Positions 40,335 to 41,968 of a DNA stretch of 64,000 nucleotides are shown in pieces (position 1 is the stretch's first letter; the number at the start of each line of letters is the position of its first letter). The stretch covers positions 1-64,000 of the forward strand of contig NZ_JAJGSX010000038.1 of assembly GCF_021245725.1 (NCBI RefSeq), read 5' to 3'. This stretch comes from Pseudonocardia sp. TRM90224. Lineage in GTDB: Bacteria > Actinomycetota > Actinomycetes > Mycobacteriales > Pseudonocardiaceae. Position numbers and translations under genes: made by a program. The notes under the pieces were generated by a model that was given only the letters and a program-made list of their open reading frames with translations, was not told the origin of the DNA and ran no database searches.

Positions 40335-41267
40335 TCAGGAGCGCAGCTCCCAGCGCAGCCCGCCGAGCGCCGTCCGGTCGTCGTCGTTCCCGGCGTGCGG
40401 TCGCTCGAACCAACCCGCGTACTCGGCGATCTCCGAGAGCCGCCAGTCGAGGCGGAACAGTTCGAGCATCGGCTCCCGCGCACCCAACGCCTGGGCGGTC
40501 ACGGCCCCGATATCGACGAGGTCGACGAGATCACGCTCGCGCGGGGCGAGCGCCAGCGACTCCCAGTCGACCAGCCACAGCCCTTCCGGTGTGACGACCT
40601 GGTTGGCGAAGTGCGGCTCGCCGTGGGTGGCGACCCAGATGTCGCCGGCCCGTCGAGCCTCGACCAGCAGCGCAAGGTGCTGGCGGGCCCAGCGCTCGAC
40701 CTCGTCGATCCGCTCCGCGATGGCGGCGCGGGCCTCCTCGCCGAACGGACCGCTCGTCCACGGTGCGGCGGTCCTGCGTCTGAGCTGATCAGCGAGGTCG
40801 GCAGGGACCCGCGACCGCCACCGCGGGATCCGGGGCGGCGGCCGGCGGGAGTGCAGGTCGTCCAGCACGGCCAGCACCTCGACGACGTGCGCGGGCGCCG
40901 CCGCCTCCTCCTGACTGGGGGTCCGCCCGTCCAGCCAGCGGGTCGCGCTGATGACTCCCCTGGCGAGCGGGACCGTGAATGCCCCCGACTTCGCCGGCAA
41001 CGCCGCCCATATCGAGCGCACGCCCTCCGACGCCAGCACCGCCGCACCGGCGTAGGCCGCTTCCAGTGATGACGCCGAATGCCGGTCGCCGAGCACGTCC
41101 AGCGTCGCGAACACCGCGCGACCTGCACCGTCGCCGACCTTCCAGTGGTGGGCGCCGAAGCCGACCGGGAGGTTGACCGCCGTTTGCGCGTCAGGCAGCC
41201 AGTGCGTCCGCACCGCGTCGCACACCTCGGCGTCGGTCACCCACTCGGGCGGCGTATACATGCGCAT
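40335..41267 (-). CDS. Aminoglycoside-phosphotransferase-like kinase
   Basis: A 310-aa APH-fold protein from ATG 41267 (41261 is also possible). THGEPHFANQVV is the catalytic loop (HGExxxxN in place of HGDxxxxN, so the usual catalytic Asp is Glu) and LWLVDWESLAL the metal-binding DxD-like motif. Distant members phosphorylate small alcohols, sugars or antibiotics; activity here is uncertain because of the Asp-to-Glu change. It is convergent with the oxidoreductase gene. Confidence 0.78.
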   Translation of the reverse strand: MRMYTPPEWVTDAEVCDAVRTHWLPDAQTAVNLPVGFGAHHWKVGDGAGRAVFATLDVLGDRHSASSLEAAYAGAAVLASEGVRSIWAALPAKSGAFTVPLARGVISATRWLDGRTPSQEEAAAPAHVVEVLAVLDDLHSRRPPPRIPRWRSRVPADLADQLRRRTAAPWTSGPFGEEARAAIAERIDEVERWARQHLALLVEARRAGDIWVATHGEPHFANQVVTPEGLWLVDWESLALAPRERDLVDLVDIGAVTAQALGAREPMLELFRLDWRLSEIAEYAGWFERPHAGNDDDRTALGGLRWELRS

Positions 41268-41332
41268 GATCCTCGGGGTGGGACCCCGACCGATCAAGCA
41301 CAATACGGGCGACCATTGCAAGATTTCACAAC

Positions 41333-41361
41333 TTGTCAGCTCTCTTACCCACTGATACTTT
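41333..41361 (+). promoter_or_regulatory. Sigma-70-like promoter of the Cys-rich peptide gene
   Basis: TTGTCA (41333-41338), a 17-bp spacer and TACTTT (41356-41361), in an AT-rich region that stands out in this genome. It precedes a GAGGAGG ribosome-binding site and ATG 41400, and diverges from the kinase gene at 41267. Confidence 0.5.
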
Positions 41362-41399
41362 GATTCTATTCAGGTGAATCGTGCGTCGAGGAGGCCGCA

Positions 41400-41597
41400 A
41401 TGCGAGTAATTGCCTTGATCAGCGACAGGCTGCTGAGCATCGCCGTCCCGGCCGCCACCGCGAGCGCGGACCGGCGCCGATGCAGCGTCGAGTGCAACCG
41501 CGACCGCTGCCCCGGGCAGCGCATGGTGGAACGCTGCGTCTACTGCAGCGGCGGCGCCCCGAAGTGCGTGTGCCAGACGTGGTGCATCAAGGAGTGA
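41400..41597 (+). CDS. Cysteine-rich small peptide with eight cysteines
   Basis: A 65-aa gene product. ATG 41400 follows GAGGAGGCCGCA. The first 23 residues (MRVIALISDRLLSIAVPAAT) look like a leader ending ASA-D, after which Cys28, 32, 37, 46, 49, 56, 58 and 62 follow in a basic peptide (R-rich around 25-45). The spacing C-x3-C-x4-C-x8-C-x2-C-x6-C-x-C-x3-C could bind metals, form disulfides after export, or be a ribosomally made modified peptide. It has its own promoter and is followed by a strong palindrome. I recognise no named family. Confidence 0.7.
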   Translation: MRVIALISDRLLSIAVPAATASADRRRCSVECNRDRCPGQRMVERCVYCSGGAPKCVCQTWCIKE

Positions 41598-41635
41598 GCA
41601 GGTAGGTCGGGGCCCGGCCGCGGTCCGGCGGCCGG

Positions 41636-41709
41636 CGCTCGTGCACAGGTTGGCACCTCCGTGCACAAGTTCGAACCTGTGCACGGGGAGGCGAACCTGT
41701 GCACGAGCG
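41636..41709. repeat. Four-unit palindrome downstream of the Cys-rich peptide gene
   Basis: Outer arms of 16 bp (41636-41651 and 41694-41709) pair perfectly, and an inner hairpin (41660-41685) pairs almost perfectly. The whole is four alternately oriented copies of GTGCACAGGTTCG. It separates convergent genes ending at 41597 and 41723 and is a likely bidirectional terminator. Confidence 0.85.
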
Positions 41710-41722
41710 ACCCCCGACCGGC

Positions 41723-41968
41723 TCACCCCGCCGGCGGGGTTCGGGTCAGGCTGCGGCGGGCGACCGTGCGGCAGCTCGGGCAGCGGATCGCGACGGTCGG
41801 TGATCCTGCGGCCTTGAACCGGACACCGCCGGCGTCCCAGACGGAGAACTCGTGGCCGCATTCGCACGACGTGCGCCACTCGCGCGATTCGGCCTCGATC
41901 GCGGCCGACCGGGCCGGGAGCAGCGCCGTCACGAGGCGCTGCGTCAACGACAGATCCGCTTTCGACAT
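41723..41968 (-). CDS. Small zinc-ribbon protein
   Basis: An 81-aa protein with CxC-x(27)-CPSC: CECGHEFSVWDAGGVRFKAAG, IRCPSCRTVAR. The paired CxC and CxxC are a rubredoxin-like zinc ribbon. N-terminal residues 1-30 are helical. It sits between the Cys-rich peptide gene (convergent) and the SARP gene. ATG 41968 is the natural start. Function unknown; a nucleic-acid or protein-binding role is possible. Confidence 0.6.
   Translation of the reverse strand: MSKADLSLTQRLVTALLPARSAAIEAESREWRTSCECGHEFSVWDAGGVRFKAAGSPTVAIRCPSCRTVARRSLTRTPPAG

Follow-up and report, generated by a model that had tools for sequence, protein, structure and literature searches.

The peptide gene at positions 41400–41597 of the window (the whole 64,000-nucleotide stretch of Pseudonocardia sp. 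TRM90224, contig NZ_JAJGSX010000038.1, that was analyzed) probably encodes the precursor of an exported, disulfide-bonded mini-protein, with processing in trans by machinery common to the family. At least 52 genes dispersed in the same genome, this one included, form a family with a common leader and an even number of Cys residues, and relatives in other actinomycetes are usually accompanied by genes for an ABC protein, a MauE family protein, a thioredoxin-like protein (referred to as redoxin), and a small S26 signal peptidase.

In the proposed mechanism, the 23-residue leader common to these dispersed genes would act as the recognition element, and the last 42 residues would constitute the product. 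A single locus on contig C27 (redoxin, ABC protein, and MauE), together with S26 peptidases encoded on contigs C44, C48, and C24, would serve all precursors in trans. The ABC protein would export the peptide with its leader still attached, disulfides would be formed and corrected by MauE and redoxin on the outer side of the membrane, and the S26 peptidase would cut after the Ala-x-Ala motif (residue 23 in the window peptide), freeing a 42-residue mini-protein with four disulfides. Use in competition or defence, as antimicrobial or inhibitor mini-proteins, appears the most likely biological role. The features of the window gene are as follows.

41400–41597, plus strand: precursor gene, 65 residues plus stop codon; GC content at third codon positions (GC3), 0.92; paralogues in its own genome
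41400–41468, plus strand: leader, residues 1–23, MRVIALISDRLLSIAVPAATASA; ends in the conserved AxA; putative cleavage after residue 23
41469–41594, plus strand: core, residues 24–65, 42 residues with 8 Cys; four disulfides predicted
41388–41394, plus strand: ribosome-binding site GAGGAGG, five bases upstream of the ATG
41333–41361, plus strand: possible sigma-70-like promoter, TTGTCA (41333–41338), 17-base spacer, and TACTTT (41356–41361), read by eye

Paralogous family, leader, and cysteine parity

The genome containing the window (9.38 Mb in 113 contigs; 96.7% complete, 2.6% contamination) was searched with the window peptide as the query, which gave two further places (E-values, 4.9e-10 and 5.5e-9). 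The family was then extended stepwise by profile searches, the DNA around nearly all matches was fetched, and these sequences were finally scanned with a leader profile built from 86 members. At least 52 genes on 32 contigs score 11.6–43.0 bits with this profile, each being Cys-rich at its end, and the next Cys-containing candidates in this genome reach at most 3.5 bits; the window copy scores 29.0 bits (35.1 bits with a 36-row profile). The initial annotation had described the gene as an orphan and had named a complete lack of homologues as part of what would refute its interpretation. Homologues have been found, both as these 52 genes and in other actinomycetes, so that the gene stands alone only in the local sense.

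Matches without a Cys-rich tail or within long frames were dropped before the counts were made, and two own-genome matches above 12 bits, a read-through copy at C81:40305 and a fragment on C66, were set aside. These two, together with C22:8770 and C1:236865, which sit in frames of 1104 and 922 amino acids and were not fetched, account for the four of the 56 profile places outside the 52. The read-through copy (L067) differs from the 52 members in that its leader-bearing frame continues into a long tail, and appears to be a frameshifted or decayed copy. Shine-Dalgarno (SD)-like matches of 4–5 bases precede 48 of the 52 members, a number not independent of the choice of starts, which was partly guided by such sites; an upstream motif common to all 52 was not seen by eye, no motif program having been run. 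Some members stand in tandem or in close pairs with differing cores (L068 on C13, L289 at 454 kb of C1, L065 on C65, L109, L117, and L193), with triplets in L109 and L117, and have likely arisen by local duplication followed by divergence.

The leader of the window gene reads roughly LADRLLxxVVPKxxAxA and conforms to L(A/S/G)DRxLxxxVPxxxAxA; it is common to the 52 own-genome genes and to peptides of many other actinomycetes, which together with the terminal AxA bears out the early impression that the first 23 residues are leader-like. The sample comprises 184 distinct members overall, many of which are related and hence not independent. Among them, the Pro residue is present in 179 of 184, Ala at positions −3 and −1 in 178 and 177 of 182, respectively, and the mid-leader Asp and Arg in 160 and 142 of 184. 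In a divergent subgroup (L183, L187, L189, and L190), located near the same machine genes, VAKADVGA replaces VPxxxAxA.

The open reading frame (ORF) at 41400–41597, read directly, encodes 65 residues with eight Cys (residues 28, 32, 37, 46, 49, 56, 58, and 62), which are confined to the final 38 residues, just as initially described. The Cys number is even in all 52 own-genome members and in 180 of the 184 distinct members, and 49 of the 52 have a Cys within the last four residues, the last one of the window peptide being residue 62 of 65. As a control, non-member ORF ends with at least six Cys, a cut-off that itself favours even numbers, were even in 93 and odd in 31 cases; the p-value for 52 even numbers out of 52 is 3e-7 against an expectation of 0.75, and 4e-16 against 0.5.

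Apart from Cys, the own-genome cores are nearly random: mean identity is 41% for the leaders, 25% for the cores, and 24% for the cores with their non-Cys residues shuffled. On average, Cys makes up 17% and aromatic residues 12% of the core. The ratio of nonsynonymous to synonymous substitution rates (dN/dS) is 0.10–0.52 in all nine close-homologue pairs from different species (one locus being used in two pairs), which indicates that selection acts on the reading frames; the GC contents at codon positions 1, 2, and 3 of the window gene (0.57, 0.58, and 0.92) are coding-like. Structure models were of low confidence, with mean pLDDT (predicted local distance difference test) values of 46.9 for the window peptide (4 rows) and 49.4 for a Micromonospora subgroup (7 rows). 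The combination of a conserved leader with cores that are nearly free except for Cys corresponds to the design of a combinatorial repertoire.

Machine genes and the surroundings of the window gene

Four kinds of genes are found near the relatives of the window gene, encoding an ABC protein that is a transporter without a recognized C39 domain, a MauE family protein (PF07291), a thioredoxin-like redoxin that has a hydrophobic N-terminal segment and a CxxC motif, and a small S26 signal peptidase (PF10502). Outside the window genome, 31 of 32 member contexts, two of which represent one locus and three of which supplied the BLAST queries, contain at least one of these machine genes within 7 kb, and the ABC gene is present in 29 of the 32. 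In a plasmid of Streptomyces clavuligerus, for example, two tandem peptides (annotated as 'hypothetical protein') are followed by MauE, redoxin (also 'hypothetical'), the ABC transporter, and S26; a plasmid of Streptomyces sp. NBC_00376 carries the peptide, redoxin, ABC transporter, and S26.

The association was also examined in the reverse direction, with loci fetched from named genomes by redoxin alone. Of 93 confirmed loci, the best 80 were kept, derived from Nonomuraea, Micromonospora, Virgisporangium, Catellatospora, Streptomyces, Actinomadura, Nocardia, Lentzea, and other genera; four of the 80 had already contributed to the leader profile. A peptide with the leader and a Cys-rich end was present in 74 of the 80 (82 peptides in total), and the same DNA, when reversed and searched at the same threshold, gave one match without a Cys-rich tail. 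Within these loci, the ABC protein was found in 75, S26 in 75, MauE in 54, and all five components in 51.

Redoxin further tracks the peptide across the Pseudonocardiaceae (Fisher p, 2.6e-17). The full-length protein is encoded in 28 of 28 peptide-positive genomes (E-value, 2.3e-29 or better), seven of which supplied rows of the redoxin profile (independent count, 21/21), and in one of 36 genomes without a recognized peptide, the latter being picked by handle and not at random. Fifteen genomes with weak or unclear peptide matches were placed in neither group, and one with three matches, including a short fragment (G235), was left out. The single exception among the negatives (G067) has two divergent peptides with weak leader scores (E-values, 0.0059 and 1.3) beside its machine genes; six other negatives match the redoxin profile in the thioredoxin part alone (E-values, 1.7e-12 to 2.3e-9).

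When the leader profile was run against 297 genomes of the family and 394 of the class, with limited candidates scored per genome and many of the profile rows taken from the window genome, the next-largest real-looking number of members among the matches listed was seven, in G464. The system looks patchy, because only two of 296 phylum-wide genomes, that of the window among them, contain the redoxin at an E-value of 1e-20 or better among the matches listed, with up to 11 candidates scored per genome. A search of 61 congeners with the single peptide gave weak matches alone (best E-value, 0.0058), the leader being present in none of the 19 loci fetched from it, and a plasmid search with the window peptide gave no match.

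The window genome contains a single redoxin, membrane-anchored and thioredoxin-like, at C27:118672–119190, and one strong MauE match at C27:121174–121692, plus one weak distant match. The ABC gene lies between them, and its product is most similar in NCBIfam to export permeases of the MsbA and HlyB types, under the curated cut-offs. Three small S26 peptidases score 139–151 bits with the S26 profile of the clusters: that on C44 is encoded 26 bases behind a family member on the same strand, that on C48 adjoins a member in convergent orientation, and that on C24 (43857–44292, minus strand; L309) has no recognized member in its 16-kb stretch, where a divergent precursor may have been missed. The machine of the window genome thus seems to be complete but split, with the precursors examined lying apart from C27. 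A DoxX/DUF417-like membrane protein is encoded after the C27 machine genes (L182, 14205–14783).

With regard to the signals around the window gene, the ribosome-binding site is as good as initially noted. The AT-rich sigma-70-like promoter noted together with it can be read by eye and is merely plausible, because a stricter consensus scan of positions 41250–41800 detects neither a promoter-like nor an intrinsic-terminator-like site. The strong palindrome after the stop codon does exist, at 41636–41709, beginning 38 bases beyond the stop; it is not specific to this gene, because it is a dispersed repeat with copies of 92–93% identity on contigs C20, C32, and C70, and is probably a repetitive extragenic palindromic (REP)-like element. 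A 14-base part of it recurs on C53, downstream of the family member there, and in a stretch of C47 (L073). The neighbouring genes are all on the minus strand and encode an APH-type phosphotransferase (PF01636; E-value, 1.6e-12), a small protein whose best zinc-ribbon match (E-value, 0.0039) falls short of the curated cut-off, and a BTAD/SARP regulator (E-value, 1.6e-35), the latter two having been pointed out in the initial annotation.

Weighing of alternative explanations

Several observations weigh against the reading of the window gene as a precursor served by a shared machine. The 7 kb on either side of the window copy contain no machine gene, and service in trans therefore rests on the shared leader and the single redoxin/MauE locus; the 19.5-kb stretch of C27, in turn, contains neither an S26 gene nor a peptide. 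By leader score, the window copy ranks 31st of the 52 (29.0 bits), and the structure models are poor. Among the redoxin-selected loci, MauE was not found in 26 and no peptide was seen in six of the 80, and the Cys number is odd in four of the 184 members, one of which has an extra Cys in its leader. The make-up of the genome groups compared for redoxin, namely the seven positives that contributed profile rows, the non-random negatives, and the 15 genomes in neither group, has to be counted here as well, as does the rival view of the leader as an ordinary Sec signal peptide.

In that rival view, the general signal peptidase cuts the leader, the Cys residues are oxidized spontaneously, and the ABC–MauE–redoxin set merely aids some relatives. 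The leader fits the rule for a classic signal peptidase I site, namely Ala-x-Ala preceded by Pro, and S26 is the very family of that peptidase; the 25 tested own-genome contexts, of which none has a machine gene within 7 kb, agree with this view too. A Sec signal peptide as a rule contains, on the other hand, an uninterrupted hydrophobic stretch, and a charged Asp–Arg pair is located amid the would-be hydrophobic part of the leader in most members (Asp in 160 and Arg in 142 of 184). In addition, the presence of the ABC gene in 75 of the 80 redoxin-selected loci and the tracking of the peptide by redoxin across genomes speak against this view, and we consider it unlikely. The same dispersed contexts, together with the copy at C81:40305 that runs on into a long tail, could mean that most own-genome copies are relics of a once-clustered family and make nothing. 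Against such decay stand the 52 intact frames, the SD-like sites in front of 48 of them, and the even Cys number in all 52, which drift should break; this is the least probable of the alternatives.

Two further alternatives concern the nature of the product. The peptides might carry additional enzymatic cross-links (thioether or aromatic), disulfides being only one part of the modification of a ribosomally synthesized and post-translationally modified peptide (RiPP). The leader–core design, the ABC protein, and the aromatic content of the cores (12%) are compatible with this, and the small subunit of methylamine dehydrogenase also bears a cross-linked cofactor. MauE and MauD are indeed known from the maturation of that enzyme, as described in the decRiPPter paper (PMC7794033). 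None of the four neighbour families examined is, however, a known RiPP cross-linking enzyme, with other recurring neighbours not excluded and enzymes encoded elsewhere not searched for, and we regard such cross-links as very unlikely. The initial suggestion of a modified-peptide precursor accordingly stands as far as the leader-plus-core layout is concerned, with disulfide formation as the sole modification indicated. Less probable still is a metallothionein-like role as metal-binding or thiol-buffer peptides without disulfides, to which the abundance of Cys (on average 17% of the core residues) and the CxC and CxxC patterns might point. The even Cys numbers (52/52 and 180/184), the redox and export genes adjoining the relatives, and the otherwise hardly constrained own-genome cores all argue against it, so that the metal-binding peptide of the initial annotation is weakened. 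Of its third proposal, an exported disulfide-rich antimicrobial, the exported disulfide-rich peptide is the part that gains support from the AxA-ending leader, the MauE, redoxin, ABC, and S26 genes near the relatives, and the Cys parity, in line with the precursor reading preferred here.

Comparison with known systems and significance

The peptides tested belong to no named family, as had been surmised. Five members scanned against Pfam gave no match, nor did five members and a set of six peptides (two being in both sets) against NCBIfam; with three peptides, PHROGs returned a sole weak match, phrog_34913 of unknown function, to the window peptide (E-value, 0.06). In the PDB, no convincing chain was found with the window peptide alone (best E-value, 0.03, a ribosomal protein), and no chain matched a 17-row core profile at E-values up to 10. 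A likeness of the core motif YRxCC...CxxC to the small subunit of methylamine dehydrogenase was not supported, there being no Pfam match for the five members and no PDB chain.

Several known peptide systems are comparable with the family. Double-glycine leader bacteriocins are exported by peptidase-containing ABC transporters; the present system is similar in its short leader, ABC exporter, and leader removal on export, as proposed here, and differs in that no C39 domain was found in the two ABC proteins scanned with Pfam, in AxA instead of the GG of these class II bacteriocins, and in the separate S26 peptidase. Prochlorosins, in which one enzyme acts through lanthionine chemistry on numerous precursors that have the same leader and hypervariable cores, resemble the proposed one-machine arrangement, whereas disulfides are proposed here and the leader and enzymes are different. 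Animal conotoxins and plant defensins likewise combine a conserved leader with a core that is free between the Cys residues, in large paralogous repertoires; the present family shares this leader–core design and is bacterial, with its own leader and machinery, and no common ancestry is claimed. The maturation of methylamine dehydrogenase by mauE and mauD is also comparable in that a PF07291 protein and a thioredoxin-like partner act for a Cys-rich substrate, while an ABC protein and a dedicated S26 peptidase are present here and no sequence similarity to the enzyme subunit was found in these Pfam and PDB searches.

In the open-licence literature, the only related description found is in the decRiPPter paper (PLoS Biol 2020, PMC7794033), which proposes candidate new RiPP classes. 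As far as its description goes, three candidate Streptomyces families contain mauE, one also mauD, and each cluster includes a precursor with eight or more Cys; mauE and mauD are suggested to modify the precursors, MauE being thought to help form disulfides in methylamine dehydrogenase maturation (PMC7794033). These families are probably the same kind of system as that described here: MauE is beside a Cys-rich precursor in both, as in the relatives found in Streptomyces clavuligerus, and the window precursor has eight Cys as in those families, yet no MauE nearby, whereas its relatives do adjoin MauE. The comparison is by description alone, the decRiPPter families being a one-paragraph prediction for Streptomyces with genes clustered on one strand (PMC7794033). 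In contrast to that description, the system here has a defined leader with AxA, the redoxin–ABC–MauE–S26 set, many genera, Cys parity, and at least 52 precursors scattered away from one machine; that account does not mention the leader, the AxA/S26 scheme, the even Cys numbers, the genomic co-occurrence, or the scattering of a repertoire within one genome (PMC7794033).

The observations could be generalized to a repertoire factory, in which one machine for export, oxidation, and cleavage handles dozens of structurally independent, disulfide-locked mini-proteins encoded by scattered genes, with the leader as their sole common part. Pairing of Cys would be almost the only constraint on the diversification of the cores, and the system would be a bacterial counterpart of the venom and defensin repertoires; we give this broader view an even chance of being correct. 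If it is true, a class of natural products would come to light that is likely to escape gene-cluster mining, because redoxin, ABC, and MauE are not encoded near the precursors examined in the window genome. At least 52 natural disulfide scaffolds would be available from one strain, with 184 distinct members in the present sample, and the leader might be used to address other disulfide-rich peptides to a bacterial machine for export and oxidation. The family would also provide a case for studying the evolution of hypervariable peptide repertoires in bacteria.
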